Origin: Spongiibacter marinus
GTDB taxonomy: Bacteria; Pseudomonadota; Gammaproteobacteria; Pseudomonadales; Spongiibacteraceae
Direction: 5' to 3'
DNA length: 64,000 bases
Assembly: GCF_016906995.1 (NCBI RefSeq)
Contig: NZ_JAFBBD010000002.1
Span: forward strand, 147,667 to 211,666
This document shows, piece by piece, positions 39,413-53,246 of this stretch. How positions within the stretch are numbered: position 1 is the first letter of the stretch; every line of letters starts with the position of its first letter. Under the pieces are notes generated by a model. It was not told the DNA's origin. It did not search any database and was given only the letters and a program-made list of their open reading frames with translations. The position numbers were made by a program, and so were the translations under genes.

Positions 39413-40186
39413 ATGCCCAAGGCCGCCGCGCACGCCCCGCCGACACCTTCGCGACTGGCCCATACCCTCAATGCCTTGGGTGTGGCGGCGAGTGCTGCGC
39501 CGCGCGCGGGTTTTGCCGACAAACTGGCCGAATTGATTGACCTCTCCGGAGCGATTGCCCTGTCGGAGTCACTGCGCGGCTTGCGACGCGTGAAGGCGAC
39601 CGGCGAAGCCGCTGGCGATGATGCCCAAGCCCTTTTTATGGCGCGTCGCGCCGACATGATTGAGGCGATCTCCGCGAGTTTCACCCTCGACCCGGAGGCC
39701 ATGGCCAACAGCCCGGCGGGATTTATTCTACCCTCGCCAAACGCCGACACTTTTGGCAGCGATGCCGCCGGGTACGCGCCTTATCAACGCTTTTATGCCC
39801 TGCATCAAAGTGAAATTGACCATCGGGTCATCAGCTTGCGCGGCGAGTTACGCAAGCTGTTGGCGGGTCGCTCCGAGGCGCTGGCCCAGCTGGCCGCGCT
39901 GGATACCATGATGGAGGGCACGCTGGCGGTATACAGCCGTCGTGCACTTTCTGCCTTACCTAAATTACTGGCGCAGCATTTTTTCGCGCTGCGCAGTGAG
40001 CAACAAAACATCGATGCCGATACCGAGCAGCCAACTACCAGTGAGCAGTGGCTCGCGGACGGGGGCTGGCTCTGGCAATTTCATACCGACATGCAGAGTT
40101 TGCTACTTGCTGAACTCGCGCTGCGCCTGCAGCCGCTACAGGGCCTATTGGAAGCCCTGAACTCCGAACACGAGGACACTCCATGA
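39413..40186 (+). CDS. DUF3348 family protein, first gene of stator-like operon
   Basis: 257 residues, soluble, without signal or membrane segment. It matches the DUF3348 family from memory: an N-terminal block with Leu-Ala-His-Thr-Leu...Phe-Ala-Asp-Lys-Leu-Ala-Glu-Leu-Ile-Asp...Ala-Ile-Ala-Leu-Ser-Glu-Ser-Leu, a central block Tyr-Ala-Pro-Tyr-Gln-Arg-Phe-Tyr...His-Gln, and Leu-Ala-Ala-Leu-Asp-Thr-Met-Met-Glu. Mostly helical, Ala/Leu rich, ending in a short acidic tail. An AGGA ribosome site precedes the ATG. Overlaps the DUF802 gene by 4 bp (ATGA). Function unknown; as the cytoplasmic partner of a membrane complex it may bind the long coiled tail of the next protein (inference). Confidence 0.8.
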   Translation: MPKAAAHAPPTPSRLAHTLNALGVAASAAPRAGFADKLAELIDLSGAIALSESLRGLRRVKATGEAAGDDAQALFMARRADMIEAISASFTLDPEAMANSPAGFILPSPNADTFGSDAAGYAPYQRFYALHQSEIDHRVISLRGELRKLLAGRSEALAQLAALDTMMEGTLAVYSRRALSALPKLLAQHFFALRSEQQNIDADTEQPTTSEQWLADGGWLWQFHTDMQSLLLAELALRLQPLQGLLEALNSEHEDTP

Positions 40187-42471
40187 CACGATTGCTTTCC
40201 CTGGCTGCCTTTATTCTTGGCGCGCTGGTTATTCTGTGGATGGGGGTGGCTGTTGCCGCCGGCCACTTGCTGGCATCGGTAGTGATGTTACTCATCGCGC
40301 TGGCCTACTTTACCGGCGGGGCAGAATTGCTGCGCTATCAGCAGGCCACCGGCGCGCTGCACGCGGCCCTGGCGCAGGGCGGCGATGTGGAGCTGAATCG
40401 CTGGCTGGATGCCTTGCCCGCGTCGCTGCGCAACCCGGTGCGTCAGCGTATCGAAGGGGAATATGTAGGGCTGCCGGTACCCGTGCTCACGCCCTATCTG
40501 GTTGGCCTGCTGGTCATGCTGGGTTTGATGGGCACCTTCGTCGGCATGGTCGAAACCCTGGGCGGTGCGGTACAGGCGCTGGAGGGTAGCACCGAGCTAA
40601 GCGCTATTCGCGACGGCTTGACCACACCGATCAAGGGTCTGGGCATGGCCTTTGGTACCTCTGTGGCCGGTGTGGCGGCATCGGCGATGTTGGGTTTTAT
40701 CGCTACGCTCAGCCGGCGCGAGCGTATTGACGTATCCCGCGAGTTGGATCAACAGCGCGACAGCCGCTTCCGTAATTACTCTCTCAGTCATCAGCGCCAA
40801 CAAACCTATTCGGCCCTGCAACAACAAGCCGATGCGCTGCCCACCGTTGCCAGCCAGCTCACGGCACTGAGTGAGCGCCTCGGTGTGATGGGCGAGCAGC
40901 TCAGCAAGCAATTGCTCGACAACCAGCAGCAGTTTCAGCAGAGCGTGCAACAGGATTTTCAATCACTGGCCAATGCGGTGGCCGAGTCACTCAATCGCAG
41001 TTTGGCGGACAGCGGTCGTCAGGCTGGCGAAACTATCAAGCCGGTTGTAGAGGGGCTGCTGGCAGGGTTGGAGCGCGACCTACAGCAGCGCCACCAACAG
41101 TTTGACGAGGCGGCCAATGCGCGCCTTGAAGCGATGTCTAGCCAGCTTGAACAAAGCGCGGCCACCATTGATAGCACCTGGCAAAAAGGCCTGGAAAATC
41201 AGCAGCGCGCCAATCGTGAATTGGCCGATGCGGTGGGTCAAAGCCTCAGCAGTAGCGCCGAGCAGATGGCCCGCGACAGCCGCCAGTTGCTGGACGATGC
41301 CGCCCAGCGCAGTGCCGAGGCGCTACAGGCTCAGCGCGATGCCGAAGCCGAGCGGTTACAGCAGTGGCAGGCGGCCTTTGCCAATGCCGAAACCATGTTG
41401 TCGGCAGTGGCCCGCTCCCTGGGCGAGGATGCCGAAACCCGCAATGCGGCGTTGAACAGCGTCAACCAACAGTTACTGGAGCAGCAGCGCCAGCAACTTG
41501 AAGAACAGCAAGCGGCTGAGCAGCGCTGGCAGGAAAGTGTGGCGGCGCGAAGTACGCAGCTGATCGATGCCCTGCAGGGCCAGTTGCAACAGCTGCGTGA
41601 TGAAGAAGGGCAGCGCGGCGACGCCGCGGTAAGCCGTCTGGAAACGCTGCAGGCAGCCATTGCCGAGCAACTGAGCCAGCAACAGGCCGCCGAGCAGCGC
41701 TGGCAAGCAAATGTGGCAGAGCGCAGCAGTGCACTGATTGATGCCCTGCAAGGTCAATTGCAACAGCTGCGCGACGAGGAAGCGCAGCGCGGCGATGCCG
41801 CCGTGAGCCGACTGGAAACCTTGCAAGCCGCGGTGGCGACGCAATTGGCCGAACTGGGCAATTCATTAGAGGCGCCGCTGGCCAATCTGATCGAATCCGC
41901 GTCGGAGGCGCCCCGCGTAGCGGCAGAGCTGATGGAGCAATTACGCGGCGAAATTACCAAGAACATTGAACGCGATAATAGCCTGCTCGATGAGCGCCGT
42001 GAGTTAATGTCGGAGCTGGCCAATTTGACCGATGGCCTGCGCGACAACAGTCATGCGCAGCGCGAAGCGGTTGAGCAGTTGCTCGCTAACAGCGGCGATA
42101 CTCTCAAGCAGCTGGGTGAGCGTTTGGGTGACAGCATTGAGCAGCGCGCCGGTCAGCTGGCCGAGCTTGGCGACCAACTGGCGGGTAGCGCGCTGGAGCT
42201 GTCCGGCGTGGGCGACACCTTTGCCGCCGCGGTGCAGCAGTTTGGTGACAGTAACGGCGAACTGCTGGCGGCGCTGGCCAGTGTCGAACAAACCCTCAAG
42301 GAAAGCGGCGAGCGCAGCGATGAGCAAATGAGTTACTACGTTGCCCAGGCGCGGGAAATTATCGACCACAACCTGCTCACCCATCAGGATATTTTGGCGC
42401 GCCTGCAAGCCCTTACCGACAGTGCCGAGCAACTTGAGCTGAATATGAATGCCGAAGGGGCCGAGGCGTGA
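40183..42471 (+). CDS. DUF802 protein: MotA/TolQ-like membrane subunit with long coiled-coil tail
   Basis: 762 residues. Two N-terminal helices (about 4-25 and 27-46), then two more at about 103-125 and 152-176. The second pair resembles proton-channel proteins of the MotA/TolQ/ExbB group: Gly-Leu-Met-Gly-Thr-Phe-Val-Gly-Met at 114-122, a glycine-rich turn, then Gly-Leu-Gly-Met-Ala-Phe-Gly-Thr-Ser-Val-Ala-Gly-Val-Ala at 152-165. Residues about 185-755 form a cytoplasmic, Gln/Ala/Glu-rich coiled coil including a 58-residue tandem duplication. It overlaps both neighbours by 4 bp. With the MotB-like protein encoded next, I infer an ion-conducting stator unit whose long tail reaches into the cytoplasm. 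Experimental function of DUF802 proteins is not known to me. Confidence 0.85.
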   Translation: MTRLLSLAAFILGALVILWMGVAVAAGHLLASVVMLLIALAYFTGGAELLRYQQATGALHAALAQGGDVELNRWLDALPASLRNPVRQRIEGEYVGLPVPVLTPYLVGLLVMLGLMGTFVGMVETLGGAVQALEGSTELSAIRDGLTTPIKGLGMAFGTSVAGVAASAMLGFIATLSRRERIDVSRELDQQRDSRFRNYSLSHQRQQTYSALQQQADALPTVASQLTALSERLGVMGEQLSKQLLDNQQQFQQSVQQDFQSLANAVAESLNRSLADSGRQAGETIKPVVEGLLAGLERDLQQRHQQFDEAANARLEAMSSQLEQSAATIDSTWQKGLENQQRANRELADAVGQSLSSSAEQMARDSRQLLDDAAQRSAEALQAQRDAEAERLQQWQAAFANAETMLSAVARSLGEDAETRNAALNSVNQQLLEQQRQQLEEQQAAEQRWQESVAARSTQLIDALQGQLQQLRDEEGQRGDAAVSRLETLQAAIAEQLSQQQAAEQRWQANVAERSSALIDALQGQLQQLRDEEAQRGDAAVSRLETLQAAVATQLAELGNSLEAPLANLIESASEAPRVAAELMEQLRGEITKNIERDNSLLDERRELMSELANLTDGLRDNSHAQREAVEQLLANSGDTLKQLGERLGDSIEQRAGQLAELGDQLAGSALELSGVGDTFAAAVQQFGDSNGELLAALASVEQTLKESGERSDEQMSYYVAQAREIIDHNLLTHQDILARLQALTDSAEQLELNMNAEGAEA
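41506..41853 (+). repeat. Tandem 174-bp (58-residue) duplication in coiled-coil tail
   Basis: Two adjacent units, 41506-41679 and 41680-41853. Both encode Gln-Gln-Ala-Ala-Glu-Gln-Arg-Trp near the start and Leu-Ile-Asp-Ala-Leu-Gln-Gly-Gln-Leu in the middle, ending Arg-Leu-Glu-Thr-Leu-Gln-Ala-Ala. Protein identity is high while many third codon positions differ, so the duplication is old and its sequence maintained. Confidence 0.85.
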
Positions 42472-43103
42472 GTCGCGAACTTGACGACGGCTTGAGCCAA
42501 GAACCGCCAATCTGGGCGATCTTTGGCGACCTGATGACCGGCATGGTGGGCGTGTTCGTGCTGCTGCTCATTTGGGCGCTGGGCTTTCAGCTGGAGCTGG
42601 CGAAAAGCCTGGAAAAAGAAGTCGCCCAGCGGGAGGTGGAGCAACAGCGCCGCGCCGTGTTGGAAGAAGCGCTTGCCGCGCCCTTGGCCAGTGGCCGAGT
42701 GACCCTGCGCGATGGCCGCATTGGCATAAGCGGCAGTGTGTTGTTTTCGCTGAACTCGGCGGAACTCCAGCAAGAAGGCCGAGAACTGCTGCGCAGCCTG
42801 ATCCCGCCGCTCAAATTGTTTGTGCAGGAAAATGATCAGCTGCTGATGGTGAGCGGCTTCACCGACGACCTGCCCATTCAACAGGGCAACTTGCAGTTCT
42901 CTGACAACTGGGAGCTGTCTGCGCAGCGAGCGCTAACGGTTACCCGCGCGTTGATCGACGAAGGCATGCCCGCCGACAGCGTGTTTGCCGCCGCCTTTGG
43001 CGACCAGCAACCGGTGGCTGCCAATAATAGCGAAGATGGTCGCGCCCAAAACCGCCGCGTGGAAATGGCGCCCGTCCCCCGCGTGAAGCAGGAGGCGAAG
43101 TGA
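42468..43103 (+). CDS. MotB/ZorB-like OmpA-family protein
   Basis: 211 residues. A short cytoplasmic N-terminus precedes one transmembrane helix (about 20-41) that starts Trp-Ala-Ile-Phe-Gly-Asp-Leu-Met-Thr-Gly-Met; Asp21 and the following Met-Thr align with the proton-binding Asp32 and Phe-Met-Thr of E. coli MotB. A helical linker (about 42-75) leads to an OmpA-like peptidoglycan-binding domain (about 76-205) with Phe-Thr-Asp-Asp, Asn-Trp-Glu-Leu-Ser-Ala-Gln-Arg-Ala and the C-terminal Asn-Arg-Arg-Val-Glu, the residues that hold diaminopimelate. The protein should anchor the DUF802 channel to the cell wall. 4-bp overlaps on both sides indicate coupled, stoichiometric translation. Confidence 0.88.
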   Translation: MSRELDDGLSQEPPIWAIFGDLMTGMVGVFVLLLIWALGFQLELAKSLEKEVAQREVEQQRRAVLEEALAAPLASGRVTLRDGRIGISGSVLFSLNSAELQQEGRELLRSLIPPLKLFVQENDQLLMVSGFTDDLPIQQGNLQFSDNWELSAQRALTVTRALIDEGMPADSVFAAAFGDQQPVAANNSEDGRAQNRRVEMAPVPRVKQEAK

Positions 43104-43828
43104 CTCCCGCTCTCGGTATTCCACTGGCTGAATTGCAGGCAACGCTGGCGACGCTGCAAGGGCAGTGCCCCCAGTTCGACCCACCGCGCCTGCGCGGCGT
43201 GGAAAGTCTGTTGGAGAAGGCGCAGCCGCAGCGACCGTCAGTGCAGGCGCCACTATTGCGCCGCGCGGCATCAATGCTTGCTGATTACCGGCGCGACTGT
43301 GAGCAATTCAGCGAGCAGCCGAGCCGCCTGGCTGGTGTGCTGGCGACTCACCGCCAGCAATTGGCGACTCGTCGCAGTGGGGCGGCTTCAGCCCTGCGAG
43401 CTCTGCAAGCCCAGCTAAACCGAGACACCCCGGATGACGCCGCCAGCGACGAAGCAAGTTCGCCGATCAGTGCCTTGCTCCGCCAGCAGGAATTTTCGCT
43501 GTTGGGCGCTTCCCAGAGCCATCCACCCGATAAGGCGACCAGCGAGCCGCCAAAAGAGCTGCGCGCATTGCGCCAATTGCGCAGCCGCCAGCGCCATCAG
43601 GATATCGAGCAGCGCATTGATCAGGCCATTCAAAACGCTCCTCAAGATCCCGGCCCTCTCAACCCGCAAATGCTGGCTATTCGCTCGCTGACCAATATGC
43701 GCGAACGCTCGCCGGCCTACCTGAAACAGTTTGTTGGCTACCTCGATACCTTATTGTGGTTAGAGGCGCAGCTGCCGGGTGAAGAAAGCGGTAAAGCCGG
43801 TAAGGGCAAGCGTCGCAAAGCGCGATAG
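43100..43828 (+). CDS. DUF2894 family protein, last gene of stator-like operon
   Basis: 242 residues, soluble, without signal peptide. It matches DUF2894 from memory: a C-terminal block with Gly-Pro-Leu-Asn-Pro-Gln-Met-Leu-Ala-Ile-Arg-Ser-Leu, then Met-Arg...Ser-Pro-Ala-Tyr-Leu-Lys-Gln-Phe-Val and Tyr-Leu-Asp-Thr-Leu-Leu-Trp-Leu-Glu. The N-terminal 70 residues are helical; the middle (about 110-160) is low-complexity. It ends in a very basic tail (Gly-Lys-Ala-Gly-Lys-Gly-Lys-Arg-Arg-Lys) suggesting contact with nucleic acid or acidic partners. The 4-bp overlap with the OmpA-like gene makes it part of the same transcript. Role unknown. Confidence 0.8.
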   Translation: MTPALGIPLAELQATLATLQGQCPQFDPPRLRGVESLLEKAQPQRPSVQAPLLRRAASMLADYRRDCEQFSEQPSRLAGVLATHRQQLATRRSGAASALRALQAQLNRDTPDDAASDEASSPISALLRQQEFSLLGASQSHPPDKATSEPPKELRALRQLRSRQRHQDIEQRIDQAIQNAPQDPGPLNPQMLAIRSLTNMRERSPAYLKQFVGYLDTLLWLEAQLPGEESGKAGKGKRRKAR

Positions 43829-43892: not shown

Positions 43893-44663
43893 ATGAAAGC
43901 GCTCGATATCGCGACATCTGTTTTTGCCAGTTCCAGTCGTGCCTGGCGCGGCACCGCCGCCTTTGCATCGACCCCGAGCAAGCCGGAAAAATTACTTGAG
44001 CTCTACGAGTATGAGGGCTGTCCATTCTGTCGGCTCGTTCGGGAAGTACTGTGTGAGCTGGACCTGGATGCGATGATCTACCCTTGCCCGAAAGGCGGCA
44101 TGCGCTTTCGTGGCACCGCGATCGACTTGAGCGGTGCCAGCCAGTTCCCGCTGCTGGTCGACCCCAACAATGATGTGGTGCTACTGGAGTCTGCAGAGAT
44201 CATCGACTATCTCTACCACCAGTATGGTGGTGGTCGCCGCCGCGCCTCGCGGGGAGTATTGCGTCAGGTGGATATGTTGTCGTCGCTGGCGGCAACGGCA
44301 TTGCGATCGTCGCCAAAACCACGCGGTATGTATGCGGCGGAGTCCACAGCGCCCGCTGAGCCTTTGGAATTGTATAGCTTTGAGTCCAGCCCCTACGCGC
44401 GTTTGGTTAGAGAGCGTTTAAGCGAGTTGGAGATCCCTTACCGCCTGCGCAATTTCGCCAAGTCTCGTTGGCAGGAAATGGGGCCGCCGATCGTGCGCGA
44501 AAAATTCTTCCCCGATGCGCCAATAACCAGTGATAACCGGCTGCGTTTGCGGGAGCTAACCGGTCGCAGTCAGGTGCCGTACCTGGTCGACCCCAACACG
44601 GGGGTAGCGATGTTTGAGTCGACAGACATTATCGACTATCTCAATGAGACCTACGCCGAGTAA
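43893..44663 (+). CDS. Protein with two tandem glutaredoxin/GST-N-like thioredoxin-fold domains
   Basis: 256 residues. Domain 1 (about 30-110) begins Leu-Tyr-Glu-Tyr-Glu-Gly-Cys-Pro-Phe-Cys and ends with Phe-Pro-Leu-Leu-Val-Asp-Pro-Asn and Glu-Ile-Ile-Asp-Tyr-Leu. Domain 2 (about 160-256) repeats the plan: Leu-Tyr-Ser-Phe-Glu-Ser-Ser-Pro-Tyr-Ala, Val-Pro-Tyr-Leu-Val-Asp-Pro-Asn, Asp-Ile-Ile-Asp-Tyr-Leu. Only the first has the CPFC redox pair; in the second both cysteines are Ser and Ala, so it is probably a glutathione-binding or structural copy. Likely a cytoplasmic thiol-disulphide or glutathione-linked protein. It follows the stator-like operon by 64 bp on the same strand. Confidence 0.83.
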   Translation: MKALDIATSVFASSSRAWRGTAAFASTPSKPEKLLELYEYEGCPFCRLVREVLCELDLDAMIYPCPKGGMRFRGTAIDLSGASQFPLLVDPNNDVVLLESAEIIDYLYHQYGGGRRRASRGVLRQVDMLSSLAATALRSSPKPRGMYAAESTAPAEPLELYSFESSPYARLVRERLSELEIPYRLRNFAKSRWQEMGPPIVREKFFPDAPITSDNRLRLRELTGRSQVPYLVDPNTGVAMFESTDIIDYLNETYAE

Positions 44664-44681
44664 CCAGTTGGCTGGAAGTTG

Positions 44682-44707
44682 AAAAAAGGCGGCTGCATCG
44701 CAGCCGC
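44682..44707 (-). terminator. Rho-independent terminator of porin gene (minus strand)
   Basis: A 7-bp stem (GCGGCTG / CAGCCGC at 44689-44707) is followed on the minus strand by six T (44687-44682). It is 66 bp beyond the porin stop codon and 19 bp beyond the plus-strand gene's stop. Confidence 0.75.
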
Positions 44708-44772
44708 AAAGACCACAGCGGAGAGATCCGCGTGCATCGGGTGGGACTAAGACATTGGCCAGGGCTGTGTCT

Positions 44773-45939
44773 TTAAAATGACAGCGCCAAGCCCACGCTT
44801 ACGGCTTGGTTTTCCATCTCTTCAGAGCGGTGGTTGTCCGCCGTCAGCTCAGAGTATTCACCAGCAAGCACCAGCCCTGGCAGCAGGGTGTGGTAAACGC
44901 CGAGAGTGAGTTTTGCCTGCGTGTCGAGCTGGGTGTCCGTGTCGGCGGGTGCCAGCTCTACACTGGATTCACCGTAGTTAATGCCGAGTTTGGTGTCGCC
45001 GATCTGGTGGCTGAGCTGCACAAACCAGCCCTGGGTATCTCGCGCTTCACCATTGATGTCCGCGGCGTCGATAAACAGCCCGTAGTAGCCCACGCCGGTC
45101 GCGTCGAATGCCGATGCCATGAGACGGGTATTCCCCAGGCTGATGGCGGCGGTGAGGTCGACGGCCAGTGCTTCGTAGTTGTTGCCATTGGCAACATCCA
45201 CGCTTTGACGAAGGAAGGTGGTTGAGACAAAACCCCACTGGTGGTCAAAGCGCAGTTTGCCGTGCAGGCCCGGTTCCTGGCTGCCGGTATCGCCAACATA
45301 GCCATTGCCGCCAAAAGAAACTAAATCCAGTGGCTGGTATAAACCGATGGCGGTACTCACGCCGTTGCTGGCTTTGTAGTCATAGGTGATTTGCGAGAGG
45401 CGGTCGGCAAAAATATAGCCGTAACCGGCGCCGCCCAGACTGGTGTTAAGTGGGCTTTTTACGGCGAGCGGTGCCCCCACCGAGGCGAGAGACATGTCTT
45501 CTACCAGCACGTCTATGCCGTAGACGCCATAGGCGCGGCCTACCGTTAATGTGCCCACTTCATCGTTACCAACGGTGAAAAAAGCGCGCCAGGCTTCACC
45601 GTCGCCATTGCCATTGAAAGCAGCGTTGTCAGTGGTTCCCGGTTCAATGGCCACCGTCGCGCGAATGTCGAAGCCGTTGCGTTGGGTACTGGCACTGAGT
45701 TGAAAGCTTGCCGGGCTGTAACCGTTGGAAACGGCGCTGGCATCTTCGCCAGTGCACAGCAAGGCGTTACCCGCCACCGTTGGGGCGTTGTCGTCGCATT
45801 TGGCATACACCAGGTGGGTGTTGATATAGCCGCCGAAGCTAAGGGTCCAGTCGTCGGCGTTAATTTCCAGGGCCTGCGAGGCTGGCGCCGCTATCAGGAG
45901 GCTGCTGCCTAAGCAGCTGAGTAGGGTATGTTTGTTCAT
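44773..45939 (-). CDS. Outer-membrane porin (general/substrate porin type)
   Basis: 388 residues. A signal peptide (about 1-23) ends before Leu-Glu-Ile-Asn-Ala-Asp. The rest alternates polar and hydrophobic residues in amphipathic strands, with the Val-Gly-Arg-Ala-Tyr-Gly-Val-Tyr-Gly segment near 125 and a terminal Phe (Leu-Ala-Leu-Ser-Phe) for BAM recognition. This is a trimeric 16-strand-type porin by length. Two Cys at about 49 and 62 may pair in a loop. It is co-directional with the cyclase, GabD, sigma-54 regulator, permease and alcohol dehydrogenase genes and could bring their substrate through the outer membrane, although the 176-bp gap before it suggests its own promoter. Confidence 0.82.
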   Translation of the reverse strand: MNKHTLLSCLGSSLLIAAPASQALEINADDWTLSFGGYINTHLVYAKCDDNAPTVAGNALLCTGEDASAVSNGYSPASFQLSASTQRNGFDIRATVAIEPGTTDNAAFNGNGDGEAWRAFFTVGNDEVGTLTVGRAYGVYGIDVLVEDMSLASVGAPLAVKSPLNTSLGGAGYGYIFADRLSQITYDYKASNGVSTAIGLYQPLDLVSFGGNGYVGDTGSQEPGLHGKLRFDHQWGFVSTTFLRQSVDVANGNNYEALAVDLTAAISLGNTRLMASAFDATGVGYYGLFIDAADINGEARDTQGWFVQLSHQIGDTKLGINYGESSVELAPADTDTQLDTQAKLTLGVYHTLLPGLVLAGEYSELTADNHRSEEMENQAVSVGLALSF

Positions 45940-46115
45940 GTGAGTGTCCTTGTTATTTTGCCGTTATTCGGCAGTTATCTCGATATCGTGCTGACCTTTC
46001 CCGCAGGCATTTTTCGGCCAAAAGCAAAATTCCGGCGCAGCCGTTCCCCAGGGCAGTGACCGAGGCCATTGCCCGAAGGGGAGCCCGCACAGGCGGGCAC
46101 TAGGGAAGGGTGGTG

Positions 46116-47165
46116 TTACTTAATAACGATGGGATTAACGGGAGAGCCGGAGCCGCCTTTCATTTTCAGTGGCGCAGCATTGAAGAAGAAGCTGTAGCGA
46201 CCGTCTTTCGCGCTGGACTCTGCCAGGTCGTCCAGCCAGTAGATTTCTGACAGCACAATACCCAGGTCGCGGATCAGCGCGCCGTGCAGGGGAATGACAT
46301 AGTTGTCGCCATCGATGACTTGGTTGGCGCGTTCAATGGCCAGGTTGTCGGCAGCGATCACGGGGATCTCCATCTTGTCTAACCATTTGATCAAGGCGGT
46401 GCTGTAGCACAGGCCGGGTTCGGTTTGCGCATTCCAGTTTTGCTTGTCGTTTTCGTCGTAGAAGCGGCCCATAGAGCCGGTGCGGATCAACAGAATGTCA
46501 CGCTTCTCAATATCGACCTTCTGGCGCTTGGCGGTTGCCTTGATATCGTCGAGGTTAATGCAGGCATTTGGTGCCAGGCGGTGGTTCTTATCACCCATTG
46601 CGCGGCCAACATCGAGCAGTACACCGCGCCCGGCAATACCGGCTTCACCCAGCGTGCCAATATCCACAAAGCTGTGGCCGTGAGTGGTGGTGTCGGCAGA
46701 CTTACCGTTGTACACCTTGTCGCCATACCACGCGTGGCCGAGGGCATCGACGTGAGTAGTGCCTTGCAGGTACATAAATACAGCGTCGTCAGAATACTTC
46801 ACGCCGCCGGGCAGTTCGTTAATTTTATTGGATGAGTAGATGCTTTCATCCTGAGACATAAAGTGCATAACCGGTACGCGGCCGGGGAAGACCGGGCCAA
46901 CACCGTGGGTCATGGGCAGCTGCAAGGTGAAGCGTTCGCCGGTTTTTATCTCGGCAACCCCGCGTAATACTTGTTTGCCATCGAGGTAGTTGAGGCCGCC
47001 GATCTGGTCTTCCTTGCCCCATTTGCCCCAGTTGTTGGGGGACTTTTTCTGCAGCGCTTCGATGTCGCCGGCCGCATGACTAGCGGCGGCGCCGAACAAA
47101 CCGATACAACTCGCCAGTGCCATACCAGCGAAACGTTTGCGTGTGTTGTGCAGAGAGCTGATCAT
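46116..47165 (-). CDS. Exported cyclase-family metal-dependent hydrolase (PF04199)
   Basis: 349 residues from the ATG at 47165, selected for its AAAGGAAG ribosome site. A signal peptide ends Ser-His-Ala-Ala (about residue 32), so the enzyme is periplasmic. Cyclase-family landmarks: Leu-Pro-Met-Thr-His-Gly-Val, then Gly-Thr-Thr-His-Val-Asp-Ala-Leu-Gly-His near the middle (the metal-binding HxDxxxH pattern) and Ile-Pro-Leu-His-Gly-Ala-Leu-Ile. Relatives include kynurenine formamidase and isatin hydrolase, which open amides or lactams. It follows gabD by 87 bp. In this cluster it could open a lactone, ester or amide outside the inner membrane before uptake (inference). Confidence 0.85.
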   Translation of the reverse strand: MISSLHNTRKRFAGMALASCIGLFGAAASHAAGDIEALQKKSPNNWGKWGKEDQIGGLNYLDGKQVLRGVAEIKTGERFTLQLPMTHGVGPVFPGRVPVMHFMSQDESIYSSNKINELPGGVKYSDDAVFMYLQGTTHVDALGHAWYGDKVYNGKSADTTTHGHSFVDIGTLGEAGIAGRGVLLDVGRAMGDKNHRLAPNACINLDDIKATAKRQKVDIEKRDILLIRTGSMGRFYDENDKQNWNAQTEPGLCYSTALIKWLDKMEIPVIAADNLAIERANQVIDGDNYVIPLHGALIRDLGIVLSEIYWLDDLAESSAKDGRYSFFFNAAPLKMKGGSGSPVNPIVIK

Positions 47166-47252
47166 ACTATGCTTCCTTTTGCTGTTTATTGTCGTCATTC
47201 AATGACCTATCTATGCGGTGCGGTGTGCACCGCCTTCCTCGTTGCAGGCGGC

Positions 47253-48710
47253 TTACCGCGCAGCAATGTGGTAACACCGGTATTTCAGTTCGGTGTAATC
47301 CTCGATACCAAAGTGCGAACCCTCGCGGCCGAAACCGCTGGACTTAATGCCGCCGAAGGGGGCTACAGCGGTGGAGATCATGCCGGTGTTGATGCCGACC
47401 ATGCCGTACTCCAGCTCTTCTGTGGTGCGCTCAATGGTGTGTATGTTGTTTGAAAATAGGTAGGCGGCCAGACCAAACTCGGTAGCGTTTGCCGCCGCGA
47501 TCACCTCGGCCTCGTCGCTAAAGGGGAACAGGGGGATGAGTGGCCCGAAAGTTTCTTCGCGGGCGCAGAGCATGTCGCGATTGGCATTGCCGATAACGCT
47601 CGGTTGAAACCAGTTGTCTCCCCGCTCGTGACGTTCGCCGCCACACAGCAGCTCTGCGCCTTTGCCAAGGGCATCGTCGATCTGCGCCTTCACTTTGTCG
47701 GCGGCGTCGCGGCTGATTAATGGGCCGATATCGGTGTCGGGCTCCGAGCCCGGGCCAACACGCAGGTTGGCGACTTTTGCCTGCAGGCGTTCGCTGAATT
47801 TGGCGTAGACGCCGCGCTGCACATATACCCGGTTGGGGCAGACGCAGGTTTGCCCGGCGTTGCGGAATTTACCCTTAATCAACTCGTCGGTGGCATGCTC
47901 GATGTCGGCGTCGTCAAATACGATGAACGGTGCATTGCCGCCAAGTTCGAGTGACAGTTTTTTCAGGTTGGCGGCGCTGTCGGCCATCAGTTTTGCGCCG
48001 ACCGCCGTCGAGCCGGTAAAGCTGAGCTTGCGTACAACAGGGCTGGCGGTAAGGACATTACCGATATCGGGCGCGTGGCCGCTAATCACGTTAAACACCC
48101 CCGCGGGCAGGCCGGCATGCTCGGCCAGGGCCGCGAGAGCAAACGCCGACAACGGGGTTTCCAGAGCGGGCTTTACGATAATTGAACAACCCGCTGCCAA
48201 TGCCGGAGCCACTTTGCGGGCGATCATTGCTGCGGGAAAATTCCACGGTGTGATGGCCGCGCAAACGCCGACGGCTTCGCGGGTGACCACAATGCGTTTG
48301 TCAGCCTGATGGCCGGGGATGGTTTCGCCATACAGGCGCCGGGCTTCCTCGGCGAACCATTCGATGTAGCTGGCGGCGTACAGGACTTCACCTTCGGCTT
48401 CCGCGACGGGTTTGCCCTGCTCCAGTGACATCAGTTCGCCAAGGCCACGGCTGTTTTCCACCACAAGCTGGTGCCAGCGCTTTAGCAAGGTTGCTCGCTC
48501 GTCTGCACTGCGCTGACGCCATTCGCGCTGCGCGCGCTCGGCTGCCTGAATGGCGCGCTCAGTGTCTGCCGCACCCATCATTGGTACGTGAGTAATGACC
48601 TCGCCGTTTGCCGGGTTGTGAACAGCGGCGGTATCGCTGCTGGACAGCCATTGACCGTCGATAAAACACTGATTTTTGAAAAAGGGCGTATTGGCTAAAT
48701 TCACGTTCAC
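47253..48710 (-). CDS. gabD: NAD(P)-dependent succinate-semialdehyde dehydrogenase
   Basis: 485 residues; GTG at 48710, or a second GTG two codons in, better spaced from an AGGA site. Aldehyde dehydrogenase motifs: Thr-Pro-Trp-Asn-Phe-Pro at 154-159, NAD loop Phe-Thr-Gly-Ser-Thr-Ala-Val-Gly at 231-238, general base Glu255 in Leu-Glu-Leu-Gly-Gly-Asn-Ala-Pro, catalytic Cys289 in Gly-Gln-Thr-Cys-Val-Cys. The second Cys of that CVCPNR stretch is characteristic of GabD. It oxidises succinic or a related semialdehyde to the acid. It lies 8 bp after the sigma-54 regulator gene and belongs to the same transcript as the permease, making it the second oxidation step after the alcohol dehydrogenase. Confidence 0.88.
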   Translation of the reverse strand: MNVNLANTPFFKNQCFIDGQWLSSSDTAAVHNPANGEVITHVPMMGAADTERAIQAAERAQREWRQRSADERATLLKRWHQLVVENSRGLGELMSLEQGKPVAEAEGEVLYAASYIEWFAEEARRLYGETIPGHQADKRIVVTREAVGVCAAITPWNFPAAMIARKVAPALAAGCSIIVKPALETPLSAFALAALAEHAGLPAGVFNVISGHAPDIGNVLTASPVVRKLSFTGSTAVGAKLMADSAANLKKLSLELGGNAPFIVFDDADIEHATDELIKGKFRNAGQTCVCPNRVYVQRGVYAKFSERLQAKVANLRVGPGSEPDTDIGPLISRDAADKVKAQIDDALGKGAELLCGGERHERGDNWFQPSVIGNANRDMLCAREETFGPLIPLFPFSDEAEVIAAANATEFGLAAYLFSNNIHTIERTTEELEYGMVGINTGMISTAVAPFGGIKSSGFGREGSHFGIEDYTELKYRCYHIAAR

Positions 48711-48718
48711 ATCCTGAG

Positions 48719-50089
48719 TTATTGGTTCACGTCGGTCTTCCAGCGCTGGGATTTCTTCACCAGCGTGGATTGGTCTATACCCAAAGAGGCCGCTGCTGCA
48801 CGGGTGGTGCGATGCTGTTGCAGTGCGGTGGTGATCAGGCGTTTTTCCAGTGCGGCAACTTGTTCTTTCAGAGTGCCGGCAATGCCTGGCTCGCCAGGTT
48901 GAAGCGTGGGTTGCACCTCAGCGGGCAGGTCGTTGGGGCCGATGGTCTCGCCCGTGGCACTGAGCAATAGTCGCTCGGTAAGGTTCATCAATTCGCGAAC
49001 ATTGCCGGGCCAGGAGTAATTGATCAGTCGCTCAACGGCTTCCGGGTCCAGTTGTTTGGTGACCTGGTATTGCTCGGCAAAAAATTGCAGGTAGTGGTTG
49101 AGCAGCGGAATGATCTCGTCTTTGCGCTGGCGCAGCGGCGGCAGGGTAATGGGCACAACACACAGGCGGTAATAGAGGTCCTCGCGGAATCGACCGCGGG
49201 CAACGGCCTCTTTCAAGTCGTGATGCGTCGCGGTGATCAACCGAATATTGGTATCTTTAAAGCGGGTGGCGCCCAGCGGCAGGAAGCGATTTTCCTCAAC
49301 AACTTTCAGCAGTTTTGCCTGCAGCGCCAGCGGCAGGTCGCCAATCTCGTCGAGGAACAGCGTGCCGCCATGGGCAATATCCAGCAGCCCGTCCTTGCCG
49401 CGATTACTGGCACCGGTAAAGGCACCGGCCACATAGCCAAACAGCTCGGCTTCAATCAAACCTTCTGGCATGGCGGCGCAGTTCAGTGAGATGAACGGCC
49501 CGTCGCTGCGTTCGCTGTGTTGATGGATAAACTGTGCCAGCAGTGTTTTGCCGGTACCGGTCTCACCTTGTATCAGCACTTTTACCAGTGTTGGTGCAAT
49601 GCGTTCCGCAAGCTCATAGCACGCCTGGGAACGGTTGCTGAGAATAATGCTGCTATCCAAGGCCGTATCCGGCGCTTTTAGGCTGTATTCCTGACGGGTG
49701 TTAATAATTTGCTCAAGCTGCTCCTGGGCATGCTTGGCATTCAGTAGCTCGGTTATATCGCGAACATTGGTAATCACATATTGCAGCTCGCCCTGTTCAT
49801 TGAACATAGGGTTGCCACTCACCACAATTTTGCGGCTGTCGTGAATGGTTTGCACCAGCGTTACCGGCTCCTGCTCGCGGATCACTTCCAGCGAAACGGA
49901 CTTGGAGATATACCCCGCTTTGACGAGCTCGGTCATATGTTTACCAACGACTTTGTGCCGCTGGATGCCGGTAATTCGTTCGTAGGCGCGGTTTATGGTG
50001 AGCGTCAGGCCATTTTCGTCGGTGATGTACACGCCGTCTTGCAGGGTGTCGAGCACTGGCTGCAGCAGCGCTAACTCAAGCTTATCCAT
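48719..50089 (-). CDS. Sigma-54 dependent transcriptional activator with PAS sensor
   Basis: 456 residues. PAS domain at about 10-115 (Asp-Gly-Val-Tyr-Ile-Thr-Asp, Ile-Thr-Gly), a short coiled linker, AAA+ domain at about 145-380 with Walker A Gly-Glu-Thr-Gly-Thr-Gly-Lys-Thr (175-182), the sigma-54 contact loop Gly-Ala-Phe-Thr-Gly-Ala (222-227), Walker B (241-248) and the arginine finger region, then a C-terminal Fis-type helix-turn-helix (about 415-450). The PAS domain rather than a receiver suggests direct ligand or redox sensing. It overlaps the permease gene by 8 bp. The obvious target is the -24/-12 promoter at 52703-52718 upstream of the alcohol dehydrogenase gene. Confidence 0.92.
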   Translation of the reverse strand: MDKLELALLQPVLDTLQDGVYITDENGLTLTINRAYERITGIQRHKVVGKHMTELVKAGYISKSVSLEVIREQEPVTLVQTIHDSRKIVVSGNPMFNEQGELQYVITNVRDITELLNAKHAQEQLEQIINTRQEYSLKAPDTALDSSIILSNRSQACYELAERIAPTLVKVLIQGETGTGKTLLAQFIHQHSERSDGPFISLNCAAMPEGLIEAELFGYVAGAFTGASNRGKDGLLDIAHGGTLFLDEIGDLPLALQAKLLKVVEENRFLPLGATRFKDTNIRLITATHHDLKEAVARGRFREDLYYRLCVVPITLPPLRQRKDEIIPLLNHYLQFFAEQYQVTKQLDPEAVERLINYSWPGNVRELMNLTERLLLSATGETIGPNDLPAEVQPTLQPGEPGIAGTLKEQVAALEKRLITTALQQHRTTRAAAASLGIDQSTLVKKSQRWKTDVNQ

Positions 50090-51467
50090 TGTTCACCTCG
50101 TTTTGGTCTTTGGTGAACGTGGTGTCGACGTCGCCTTTGAAAAAGTTGCGGCCGTAGATCAGCGCGGTGAGTAAGATGCCAGCGGCAAACGCCCAGGTGG
50201 CGCCTTTAATGGTTAAGATGGCGGCGATGACGCCGGCAATGCCGAGGTCGCGCTGGCTGCGCGCTTCCATCACACCAATGCGTACGCTGACAAAGCCCTG
50301 TATCAATAAGGTAAGCGCCAGTGCGATACCGAGAATGGGTTGCACAAGGCTGACAATTGGCAGCAGCAAAAGGCCGGTGTTGGTTCCCCAGCGGAAGGAG
50401 CCCGAACCGCCGAAGATGGAGTTCATTGACGCTTTGCCCTGTTTGTAGCGCTCAACAATAACCACGTGCATTGCCGCCCACAGCGGGCCGCACATCACCA
50501 CATCGGGGCCGAGTATGCTCATAAGAAAATTGCGCCCGCCAAAAATCATGTGCGCCCGGTTGGGGTCGTAGTCGATTTTTTCGTCTTGGCGAACCGCATC
50601 GGCCTCGGCGAGAATTGCCTTGCTTTGCAGTACATCGCCGAACAACACGATATAGGCAGCGAGAACGGTGGGCAGGGCAGTGACGAACATGGCTAGCGGT
50701 GGCAGGCCAAGGCCAAACACGGTGTAGTCACTGAACATCAGTGCGAAGTTGGGTTGGGTAAAGCCCCAGGTAATATCGGGCCACGGCGCTTCGCCGGCCA
50801 GCGGCGCAACGATTACGGCCAGGGCAATGATGGGGAAAATCCCCAGCTTGGCGAGGTTGGCCCAGCCGTGGCTGCGTTGGCGAAGCGTGGCAAAGTGCTT
50901 GGAAAAAATCAGGTAAAACGCAATGCCCACCGCGATGCTGATGGTGATGGGGTATTGGTCAAAGCGGCCGCCTTCTTTAAAGACAATGGCGATGGCGGCA
51001 ATGCCCGCCCCCATGATAATGCCCGACTTGATTGCCGCGGGGATCATGTGAACAACCTTTGCCGCTAGCCGGGTTCTTCCCAGCGTTAGTGCGAATATCC
51101 CCAGCATCATCTGAAAGGCGATCAAGGCGTGAACGCGGTCGCTGCCCGGCGCAAAGGTTTCCACATAGGCGATCAGCAAGGGAATGGCAGGCGTGATCCA
51201 GCCGGGGATTACCGGGTCGCCAAGCAGGTGGTGAAGCAGATAGAACAGACCGTTGAGCATCACGATGGCGATTGCTGCTTCAAAGGGCATGCCCAGCAGC
51301 TCGACCATCAGCGGGATGGCCGCGAGATCTACCGCGCACATCAGCAGGCCCTGCAGGTAGTCGGGCAGCTCAAAGCGATAGTGGATAAATGGCAGCCTTA
51401 GCTTGAAAGGGCCAAGGGGAATGTACGGCGATTCATCGCCGTCGCGTCGTTGTTGCCATGCAGTCAT
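50082..51467 (-). CDS. Multi-pass permease, possibly NCS2/SLC23-like
   Basis: 461 residues with about 12-13 predicted membrane helices starting near residue 35. The Gly-Trp-Ile-Thr-Pro-Ala-Ile-Pro segment at about 89-96, and a second half-repeat with Gly-Leu-Gly-Leu-Pro-Pro, suggest the inverted-repeat fold of the nucleobase/ascorbate (NCS2) or SulP group, but I cannot assign a family with certainty. The N-terminal 30 residues are cytoplasmic and charged. Its start lies 41 bp after the alcohol dehydrogenase stop and its end overlaps the activator gene, so it is the inner-membrane transporter of this catabolic unit. The substrate is unknown; an organic acid or alcohol is plausible. Confidence 0.7.
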   Translation of the reverse strand: MTAWQQRRDGDESPYIPLGPFKLRLPFIHYRFELPDYLQGLLMCAVDLAAIPLMVELLGMPFEAAIAIVMLNGLFYLLHHLLGDPVIPGWITPAIPLLIAYVETFAPGSDRVHALIAFQMMLGIFALTLGRTRLAAKVVHMIPAAIKSGIIMGAGIAAIAIVFKEGGRFDQYPITISIAVGIAFYLIFSKHFATLRQRSHGWANLAKLGIFPIIALAVIVAPLAGEAPWPDITWGFTQPNFALMFSDYTVFGLGLPPLAMFVTALPTVLAAYIVLFGDVLQSKAILAEADAVRQDEKIDYDPNRAHMIFGGRNFLMSILGPDVVMCGPLWAAMHVVIVERYKQGKASMNSIFGGSGSFRWGTNTGLLLLPIVSLVQPILGIALALTLLIQGFVSVRIGVMEARSQRDLGIAGVIAAILTIKGATWAFAAGILLTALIYGRNFFKGDVDTTFTKDQNEVNNG

Positions 51468-51508
51468 GGTGAGTCCCTTTATTGTTTTATTGGATCGCGG
51501 TGAGGCGC

Positions 51509-52657
51509 TTAGTACGCGGCTTGGTAAATGCCGAGGATCTCACTGACGCTCAGGTCTCGGGGGTTGTTGCGCAGCAGGCGCTTTACGCCGAAGGCCTCCT
51601 CTGCCAGCTGGGGTAAGTCGGCTTCAGGAATGCTCAGGTCGCGAAGGCGGGCGGGAATGTTCACATCGCTGCACAGCGTGTAAAGACGCTCTAGCACATA
51701 GTCGGCGGCTTGCTGGTGGCTGAGTTGATGAACCGGCGCGCCGAAGGCCGCGGCGATATCGCTAAAGCGTTCAATGCAGGCCATTTTGTTCACCTCCATC
51801 ACGTGGGGTAGCAGCAGGGCGTTACTGACACCGTGGGAGATGTGGTAGCGGCCGCCCAGGGGATAGGCGAGGGCGTGCACCGCGCCCACACCCGCATTAC
51901 CAAAGGCCAGGCCTGCCAGCAGACTGCCGGTGGCCATTGCTTCGCGGGCGCTGAGGTTGTCGGCCTGGGCATAGGCCTTGGGCAGGGCGTTAATGATCAG
52001 CGTCATCGCTTTAATGGCGAGGGCGTCGGTGATATCGCTGGCAAAGTTCGACAGGTAGGCTTCCAGGGCATGCACCAGCGCATCAACGCCGCTGGCGGCC
52101 GTTACTGTGGGCGGGCAGCTCAGGGTCATTTCCGGGGAGACTATCGCCAAGTCGGGCAGTAGGTGGTCGCTGACAATGCCTTTTTTAAGTTGGGCTTCGG
52201 GGTCCGACAAAATAGCGATGTTGGTCACTTCTGACCCCGTACCTGCGGTGGTGGGAATCGCGATCAAGGGAACACGGCGCTGGCGTACCTGGTCTTCGCC
52301 GAATAAGTCTTCCAGCTCACCGTCGTGGTCTACATACACCGCGGTGCACTTGGCAATGTCCATCGCGCTGCCGCCGCCCACTGCCAGGATGCCGTCGTGC
52401 TGGCCGTGTTTAAAAGCGGCTGCACAGGCCTTCACAATGTCCACCTCTGGTTCTGGCGGCACTTGGTCAAAAATACTGAAGCTACCCTCGGTCAGGTGTT
52501 GGCTGATTAGTGTCAGGCTGCCGGAGTCGCGCACACCTTTGTCAGTCACTAGCAAGGGGGAGTGGATATTCAGCGCGCTGAGGTGTTGGGGTAATTGTTC
52601 GGTTGCGCCTTCGCCAGTGAGTAGTTGGCGGGCAGAGCGGAAGCGAGAAACCTTCAT
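51509..52657 (-). CDS. Iron-containing (group III) alcohol dehydrogenase
   Basis: 382 residues. NAD(P)-binding motif Gly-Gly-Gly-Ser-Ala-Met-Asp at 94-100, Pro-Thr-Thr-Ala-Gly-Thr-Gly-Ser-Glu at 135-143, and the metal-ligand segment Ser-Gly-Val-Asp-Ala-Leu-Val-His (Asp192, His196) with further His in His-Ala-Leu-Ala-Tyr-Pro-Leu-Gly and His-Gly-Val-Ser-Asn-Ala. Family members include 4-hydroxybutyrate and 1,3-propanediol dehydrogenases. Being first in an operon that also encodes a GabD-type enzyme, it may oxidise 4-hydroxybutyrate or a related hydroxy compound to the semialdehyde (inference). A sigma-54 promoter lies 46 bp upstream. Confidence 0.9.
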   Translation of the reverse strand: MKVSRFRSARQLLTGEGATEQLPQHLSALNIHSPLLVTDKGVRDSGSLTLISQHLTEGSFSIFDQVPPEPEVDIVKACAAAFKHGQHDGILAVGGGSAMDIAKCTAVYVDHDGELEDLFGEDQVRQRRVPLIAIPTTAGTGSEVTNIAILSDPEAQLKKGIVSDHLLPDLAIVSPEMTLSCPPTVTAASGVDALVHALEAYLSNFASDITDALAIKAMTLIINALPKAYAQADNLSAREAMATGSLLAGLAFGNAGVGAVHALAYPLGGRYHISHGVSNALLLPHVMEVNKMACIERFSDIAAAFGAPVHQLSHQQAADYVLERLYTLCSDVNIPARLRDLSIPEADLPQLAEEAFGVKRLLRNNPRDLSVSEILGIYQAAY

Positions 52658-52702
52658 GGTACAAACCTTAGACTGAATTAATCTTATCGTTAGAGCGGTA
52701 AT

Positions 52703-52718
52703 AGCAATAGCTATGCCA
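52703..52718 (-). promoter_or_regulatory. Sigma-54 (-24/-12) promoter
   Basis: On the minus strand TGGCAT (52718-52713), 5 bp, then TTGCT (52707-52703). The GG and GC pairs are exactly 12 bp apart as required for RpoN. It would start transcription near 52692, about 35 bp before the alcohol dehydrogenase ATG. The activator gene lies in the same cluster. Confidence 0.78.
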
Positions 52719-52803
52719 AACTCGTTATTTTCTTAACCTATTGATTTTTATGTTTATTTTTAATCCATGCTATCTGTCCTTTTGTTGTGTTGATTCTTTA
52801 TTT

Positions 52804-52817
52804 CATCAATATTGATG
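52804..52817. promoter_or_regulatory. Perfect 14-bp palindrome, candidate activator site
   Basis: CATCAATATTGATG, centred about 95 bp upstream of the -24 element, the usual distance for an enhancer-binding protein. Flanking TTCATC (52802-52807) and GATGAA (52823-52828) add a second, offset dyad. Confidence 0.5.
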
Positions 52818-52990
52818 TTAATGATGAAAAAAGTCATCGGTTTCTCGGTGTGGCCTGTTCGTTTCTTGCGTTAAGAATGGCGTGTCAGATGATGGAAGCG
52901 GGGGCGGGTGGATAGGGGCTGGGGGCTGCCGTTGGCGATGGGCGTAAGCGGCATGCCATCATCGTTAGTTGTCTTTGTGCTTCAGAGGTC

Positions 52991-53197
52991 TTGCGCCGAC
53001 GGAAGCCGCTGGCATATAGTAATGGCGTTGCTAACGAATATAGTATGTAAATTATGTATCAGTGGTGTTTCGCCAAATTTCTCGCTGCCATGCGCCGTAT
53101 TGTGCGTGTGGCGCGATGGTGTGCGGCGGAGAATTGATACAAGGTTAGAAAATACCCAATTCCAAAAGGCCGCAGACATTTCATCTGCGGCCTTTTT
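52991..53197 (+). ncRNA. Candidate small RNA or 5' leader before EamA gene
   Basis: Promoter-like TTGCGC (52991-52996), 18-bp spacer, TATAGT (53015-53020); a predicted start near 53027 and a terminator ending at 53197 give a transcript of about 170 nt. Inside, CCATGCGCC (53088-53096) can pair with GGCGCGATGG (53110-53119) with a one-base bulge. No known riboswitch class is recognised. Confidence 0.4.
53164..53197 (+). terminator. Strong rho-independent terminator, orphan on plus strand
   Basis: A 13-bp perfect stem (arms 53164-53176 and 53184-53196), 7-nt loop and T run. The A-rich left flank makes it potentially bidirectional. It stands 50 bp upstream of the EamA ATG, while the gene to its left is transcribed the other way, so no annotated gene ends here. 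Confidence 0.85.
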
Positions 53198-53246
53198 CGT
53201 TGTGGGCCTCGGGGAAATGTCTCGGCAAATACGTGAGTAAAGCGCC

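Follow-up and report, generated by a model that had tools for sequence, protein, structure and literature searches.

A Zorya type III operon of Spongiibacter marinus as a candidate resident envelope-disturbance response

The 64,000-nucleotide stretch of Spongiibacter marinus DNA analyzed here (the window; contig NZ_JAFBBD010000002.1 of assembly GCF_016906995.1) contains, at 39413-43828 on the + strand, a four-gene operon encoding, in order, a DUF3348 protein, DUF802/ZorA, OmpA-like/ZorB, and a DUF2894 protein. The initial annotation had the genes and their coordinates right (Table 1). Its ATGA overlaps hold for the first of the 4-bp overlaps between consecutive genes; the other two are GTGA, with GTG starts of ZorB3 and DUF2894. 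A Pfam scan returned DUF3348 (8.5e-56), DUF802 (3.2e-6), OmpA (1.9e-18), and DUF2894 (1.9e-30), where the DUF802 model spans just residues 319-370 of ZorA, within the rod. PADLOC-DB models assigned all four genes to Zorya type III (3.7e-44 to 2e-225). Judged by gene content, the operon is Zorya type III, and what had been proposed as a possible new motor-type system is an already catalogued one, not a new kind of system. The ZorA protein is 98.6% identical to that of Neomelitea salexigens DSM 19753.

All four genes occurred together in 31/31, 24/24, and 25/25 related loci in overlapping sets, which implies that their grouping is not due to chance. The 31- and 24-locus sets comprise 51 distinct loci; loci were fetched via DUF3348 or ZorA, and one contig-end locus (L029) without DUF3348 and most of ZorA was omitted from these counts. 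No widely recurring fifth gene appeared among 24 loci of nine families, where the flanking clusters listed were present in at most six loci. The non-zor clusters listed with many loci overlie the operon itself, their longest member being on the opposite strand.

Table 1. Coordinates of the Zorya type III genes and of features in their products
Feature	Coordinates	Strand	Evidence
DUF3348 protein (PADLOC ZorG3), 257 aa	39413-40186	+	PADLOC 5.8e-62; all-helical AlphaFold2 model; no transmembrane segment
ZorA3, 762 aa	40183-42471	+	PADLOC 2e-225; transmembrane helices; channel motifs of the MotA/TolQ/ExbB type; long rod in the cytoplasm
ZorA3 channel helices TM3-TM4, residues ~105-175	40495-40707	+	Thr118, Thr159, Ser160 invariant in 50/50 rows
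ZorA3 rod, variable part, residues 401-560	41383-41862	+	Conservation lowest at 401-520; two-copy 58-residue repeat
ZorA3 rod, conserved distal module, residues ~561-748	41863-42426	+	Invariant Arg711, Gln715, Tyr718, Gln722, Ala723
ZorB3, 211 aa, GTG start	42468-43103	+	PADLOC 2.3e-106; one membrane helix, presumed ion-carrying Asp21
ZorB3 OmpA/MotB-type peptidoglycan-binding domain (predicted)	ZorB residues 92-196	+	PF00691 1.9e-18
DUF2894 protein (PADLOC ZorF3), 242 aa, GTG start	43100-43828	+	PADLOC 3.7e-44; C-terminal GPLN / SP-Y / D-L-WLE segment conserved

Zorya type III, consisting of ZorA, ZorB, DUF3348, and DUF2894 proteins, was introduced by Payne et al. (2021; PMC8565338), and the operon here resembles it in all four genes by PADLOC-DB models. 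The accessible text of that paper reports that the type III operon of Stenotrophomonas nitritireducens, cloned in E. coli, gave protection against at least one phage, also in liquid culture; the earlier view that this gene set has no known experimental role was thus mistaken. Infection of Burkholderia cenocepacia changed some of the transcripts from a predicted Zorya III operon, according to the accessible part of the published account. A literature search that left most subscription journals outside its reach found no study of the type III mechanism in the text accessible to it. The names of the two partner proteins conflict between sources: in the accessible text of PMC8565338 and PMC11890865, DUF3348 is ZorF and DUF2894 is ZorG, and PADLOC-DB has the reverse. 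PMC8565338 also prints "zorBC" in its accessible text where zorAB seems intended.

Types I and II (8vvn, 8qyd) have in common with this operon the ZorAB motor plan, the invariant ZorB aspartate, the OmpA-type domain, and the long ZorA rod, and the accessible text of PMC11890865 states that their defence requires ZorB D24, peptidoglycan binding, and the rod. By the same account, ZorC and ZorD, a predicted DEAD-box helicase, belong to type I and the nickase ZorE to type II, whereas type III instead has two proteins without a recognised enzymatic domain. The window's ZorA fell below the models of both of these types, scoring 16.7 bits against NF033914 for type I (cut-off 190) and 47.5 bits against NF033915 for type II (cut-off 100), and no ZorC, ZorD, or ZorE was found among the 14 proteins scanned (four in the operon and ten flanking it). 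This operon raises the question of how a Zorya motor works when neither the type I helicase nor the type II nickase is present.

The initial annotation described a peptidoglycan-anchored ion motor of the MotA/TolQ/Zor type with a long cytoplasmic tail and kinship to ZorAB, and profile matches and invariant residues bear this out. By hydropathy (19-residue mean >1.6), ZorA has an unbroken stretch at residues 1-51, with room for two helices, and further peaks at 105-123 and 155-173. This pattern fits the four membrane helices claimed earlier, except that the first two are unseparated. ZorB has a single segment at residues 22-40. The Gly-Leu-Met-Gly-Thr-Phe-Val-Gly motif is present in ZorA as GLMGTFVGM. 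A profile built from the membrane part of ZorA matched the solved type I ZorA 8vvn_C (E=1.7e-6), and a profile of the ZorB N-terminus aligned Asp21 with position 24 of type I ZorB 8vvn_B (E=2e-4) and, in a weak match, with position 26 of 8qyd_F (E=0.022), both positions being counted by eye from the alignments. The alignment with 8vvn_B agrees with the earlier assignment of Asp21. The motor reading of the initial annotation was to be given up if this residue varied among orthologs.

Asp21 did not vary in an alignment of 50 homologues from the window's own genome, congeners, and other families, from which three loci were left out: L022, as it comes from the genome already represented by G013; the truncated L029; and L032, the extra copy in contaminated assembly G003. 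Identical in all 50 rows were G114, G117, T118, T159, and S160 of ZorA; W16, F19, D21, L22, and M23 at the ZorB N-terminus; and D133, N147, R154, R196, and R197 in the OmpA-type domain of ZorB. By analogy, the two threonines and the serine of ZorA would resemble the ring of type I. ZorB residue 131 is an invariant phenylalanine at the place of type I H186, as read by the GxTD motif; H186 is needed for peptidoglycan binding according to the accessible text of PMC11890865. The same phenylalanine is carried by a putative MotB in the PDB.

The operon resembles MotAB/PomAB stators in its OmpA-type peptidoglycan-binding domain (3khn 2.8e-16) and in the aspartate that starts the membrane helix, but differs in the long cytoplasmic rod on ZorA and in a MotB_plug Pfam match that is non-significant (E=0.15). 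The channel helices of TolQR and ExbBD contain a GxxGTxxG-type motif and a threonine, as ZorA does, whereas the OmpA-type domain on the B subunit and the absence from the operon of any gene resembling TolA or TonB set the locus apart from these systems. Among the 25 of 40 families listed, ZorB scored below the cut-off of the curated MotB, MotD, and MotS models, and its best curated model over the cut-off, among the families listed, was NF006547, a "hypothetical protein".

The ZorA tail past residue 175 has 587 residues here, in agreement with the ~570 residues claimed earlier, and 396-870 across the 50 homologues. Mean conservation in this set was 0.75 at residues 81-120, 0.16-0.18 at 401-520, 0.52 at 561-600, and 0.55 at 681-720, and R711, Q715, Y718, Q722, and A723 of the distal rod were invariant. 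The 58-residue internal repeat is present in two copies that start at residues 444 and 502, and Tandem Repeats Finder detected no DNA array in this region. Internal repeats of 58, 87, 80, 69, or 73 residues were the best self-match in six of 12 ZorA proteins examined, including all four of the longest. The strongest hydrophobic period was 3.57-3.67 residues in 11 of the 12, versus 3.5 for a heptad coil, and the peak of the remaining protein (G389) was at 3.83. The PADLOC ZorA1 model PDLC00598 (2e-4 for the whole protein) had its best stretch at residues 545-752, the rod tip. A Zorya-specific beta-sheet in the cytoplasmic part of ZorA is described in the accessible text of PMC12505986. We read the ZorA sequences as those of a rod with a conserved root, a middle that is free in length, and a conserved tip. 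The tip probably relays force or a signal to the two partners, and we infer that torque or a signal is transferred to these soluble proteins.

Neither the DUF3348 nor the DUF2894 protein has a membrane segment by hydropathy. AlphaFold2 models built from 8-row alignments were all-helical for DUF3348 (pLDDT 72, pTM 0.70) and helical but poor for DUF2894 (pLDDT 62, pTM 0.31). Searches of Pfam, curated models, and PADLOC gave no significant match for either protein outside its own DUF and PADLOC families. Foldseek comparison of the models with the PDB found no known fold (best E 0.92 for DUF3348 and 2.8 for DUF2894), and profile searches of the PDB returned no match for DUF3348 and one at E=0.7 for DUF2894. 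The apparent absence of an enzyme from the two partners, as judged from sequences and models, would signify a lack of recognised similarity and not proof. The DUF2894 protein is just 113 aa long in L023 (10843-11184) and 129 aa long in L027 (10566-10955), and both retain the conserved C-terminal segment, which may be the working core of the protein. A candidate identity of DUF2894 as PriC was dropped, as the Pfam match was sub-threshold (0.051) and was seen in only one of eight homologues; PF07445 (PriC) was found in 0/94 genomes sampled from the class, while the E. coli control was detected. Stray DUF2894 matches to FBXO47 ARM repeats (0.0076), HrpJ (0.015), and a phage tail chaperone (0.03) were each limited to one of eight homologues.

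The marker gene DUF3348 was present in all 18 species of the genus that were surveyed (18 genomes), in two of three others of the family, and in four of 36 from the rest of the order (24/57 in total). In a sample of the phylum Pseudomonadota, it was found in 24/397 genomes and 16/232 genera; 23 of the 24 matches were over the cut-off, and all 23 were within the window's class, the Gammaproteobacteria. Two further genera, picked for having several matches in this sample, contained the marker in 58/61 and 59/61 genomes (54/57 and 57/59 when the sampled hits were excluded), and a fourth genus (g10), reached via a match in the order, contained it in 4/6. Since the two genera with 61 genomes each were chosen for having hits, near-universality holds for some genera and not for all. 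These surveys used DUF3348 alone, and four-gene content was checked in the fetched loci. Apart from split matches, the marker was single-copy in every assembly but the contaminated G003, where two copies were found. As a control, Cas1 was found in 6/18 congeners (one strong and five weak matches). PF04313 (HsdR) made an unsuitable control, as it also hits other proteins; it matched 18/21 genomes, with 8/18 congeners below 1e-30, one of them with stops. In the genus with type III in 58/61 genomes, type I ZorA was over the cut-off in none of the 61 and gave 4 weaker matches. The accessible text of PMC8565338 describes these systems as patchy at the genus level and takes this as a sign of transfer. 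By contrast, the type III marker was not patchy but near-universal in three of the four genera surveyed, where it follows GyrB; type III is patchy among families (24/397 genomes of the phylum).

Distances between zor proteins correlated with GyrB distances for all four proteins in the window's own genus (Spearman 0.62-0.73; 18 genomes), where 0/2000 permutations reached these values. The correlations were 0.83-0.90 in genus g61 (13 genomes; at most 1/2000 permutations) and 0.48-0.70 in genus g119 (12 genomes; 0 to 39/2000). The zor trees shared 8/15 GyrB splits in the own genus, 3-4/10 in g61, and 4-5/9 in g119, compared to at most 3, 2, and 3, respectively, in 500 shuffled controls. None of the four zor trees recovered the own genus alone as monophyletic; together with its sister genus, it was monophyletic for ZorA, ZorB, and ZorG, but not for ZorF. 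Genus g61 was monophyletic in all four trees, whereas g119 was not for ZorG and was barely supported for ZorF (0.21). Four families (f41, f43, f50, and f51) were not monophyletic for ZorB. These trees and distances suggest that inheritance was mostly vertical within genera, and the non-monophyly of the own genus and of the four families makes older exchange between families likely. The zor genes are under purifying selection, with omega values in six pairs (simple codon count) of 0.04-0.06 for ZorA, 0.00-0.04 for ZorB, 0.05-0.13 for DUF3348, and 0.10-0.27 for DUF2894, the fastest-evolving of the four.

Synonymous divergence of the zor genes was lower than that of gyrB in all six pairs by the same count, and high similarity extended into at least one flank of the operon in all four pairs checked by windows. 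In one pair (G002-G011), similarity drops beyond about -3 kb on the upstream side, close to where the operon starts, and continues for at least 5 kb downstream. Recent exchange of the operon alone was not borne out, as similarity reaches the flanks in the four windowed pairs; local exchange is possible. In a separate observation, synonymous differences between the gyrB genes of G009 (L058) and G005 (L069) were saturated (0.77), and the zor region and near flanks of these genomes are ~97% identical. This discordance could reflect gyrB exchange, a mixed assembly, or exchange of the larger region.

A flavin oxidoreductase gene was common to 10/20 congener and family loci, and a two-domain GST gene to 13/20, upstream of the operon in 11 and downstream in two, as it is here; its placement on differing sides implies local rearrangement near the operon. 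Among genes clearly outside the operon, the best-shared one was found in 7/13 g61 loci and 3/12 g119 loci. GC content of the zor genes (0.615-0.621) was about 2 sd higher than that of 15 other window genes (0.575, sd 0.020), GC3 was 0.66-0.75 versus 0.678 (sd 0.035), and composition gave no clear sign of foreign origin. The neighbours were mostly metabolic among the ten flanking proteins scanned, nine of which had no PADLOC match. The tenth (48719-50089), a PAS/sigma-54 activator, scored as RtcR-CARF (8.3e-101), which is probably a cross-match via its AAA part, as its N-terminus is PAS and not CARF in Pfam. Compared to the close relative G013, similarity falls ~2 kb past the zorB start, and the next gene in common (EamA transporter, 53247) is ~7 kb more distant in the window. 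The region ~44500-53200, with a cyclase, the sigma-54 activator, and an iron alcohol dehydrogenase, is inserted or replaced; in G013, a gene related to the alcohol dehydrogenase (77%) is located at +2.2 kb.

On mobile elements, a tblastn search with ZorB (E up to 1e-20) matched 27/72,556 plasmid records, of which 20 were predicted to be non-mobilizable and seven mobilizable; the 20 matches listed were replicons from Burkholderiales or Azoarcus, 366 kb to 2.6 Mb in size. Phage records matched in 15/50,697 cases, with matches confined to the OmpA-type domain, and none of the 50,697 covered 80% of ZorB. Among viral contigs, 103 and 22 pattern matches to DUF3348 and ZorB, respectively, yielded none confirmed with the profiles, in scans with short exact peptides that detect only fairly close relatives.

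Taken together, we consider the operon likeliest to be a resident chromosomal Zorya type III system that acts as a fixed, innate response to envelope disturbance, including phage defence, and we hold this reading with moderate confidence. It is called resident because of the marker's presence in 18/18, 58/61, and 59/61 genomes, the GyrB-congruent distances, the shared tree splits, and the ZorA and ZorB omega values of 0.00-0.06. By analogy to types I and II, five ZorA would surround two ZorB as an ion-driven rotor; upon envelope disturbance, such as phage entry, ZorB would grip peptidoglycan, ions would pass Asp21 and the Thr118/Thr159/Ser160 ring of ZorA, and ZorA with its rod would rotate. 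The conserved rod tip is the putative docking site of ZorF and ZorG. These two proteins, which show no recognised nuclease or helicase, may convert rod motion into an outcome, most likely via recruitment of a host factor or channel-driven depolarisation of the cell. Against a resident defence system stand a core-like distribution that is unusual for such systems, the count of just 4/6 in the fourth genus, the non-monophyly of the own genus and four families, the weakness of both partner models, and the lack of a PADLOC match in nine of ten flanking proteins.

The data are compatible with fixed innate defence as well as with a housekeeping envelope motor: the E. coli assay favours the former, and the distribution leans to the latter. 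As a housekeeping motor, TolQR- or stator-like, the complex would primarily serve wall or membrane upkeep, and phage protection in E. coli would be a by-product of plasmid expression. We regard this as a tentative possibility. It is supported by the near-universal marker and GyrB congruence in three genera, the lack of a phage record with most of ZorB or of a confirmed relative in viral contigs, the few plasmid matches (27/72,556) with very large replicons as the 20 listed, the mostly metabolic neighbours, the lack of a recognised enzymatic effector, and the absence of type I ZorA over the cut-off where type III reaches 58/61. However, occurrence in only 24/397 Pseudomonadota genomes implies that such a motor is not generally needed, and the protection of E. 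coli, seen with at least one phage and also in liquid culture, and the B. cenocepacia transcript changes, as given in the accessible accounts, also argue against it. Equally tentative is the broader proposal that type III is a core envelope motor of certain Gammaproteobacteria lineages, with which types I and II share ancestry or from which they could derive.

The 2021 paper describes the family as ordinary mobile, accessory defence systems, and the PADLOC gene models, the 4/6 count in g10, the ZorB tree with its four non-monophyletic families, and the varying position of the operon in g119 and g61 (best-shared outside gene in 3/12 and 7/13 loci) agree with that description. But marker presence in 18/18, 58/61, and 59/61 genomes, compared to 6/18 (five weak) for the Cas1 control, the partly syntenic flanks in the own genus, and the lack of a phage record covering 80% of ZorB disfavour it within the three genera, and we consider it improbable for this operon. 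A non-conducting, stator-like complex that forms a static scaffold from wall to cytoplasm would accord with the lack of a type III ion-flux measurement in the accessible literature on the system; the invariance of Asp21, Thr118, Thr159, and Ser160 in 50/50 rows speaks against it and makes it very improbable.

Zorya type III is counted as an anti-phage system by PADLOC and is listed as one for a Variovorax strain, for example, in the accessible text of PMC11953036. Its core-like carriage raises the question of whether phage defence is its main job. If type III is a core envelope motor, its classification among accessory defence systems would have to be revised. If it is a resident, vertically kept motor, counts of defence systems in such genera would need to be read again, and a motor with two partner proteins would become open to study.
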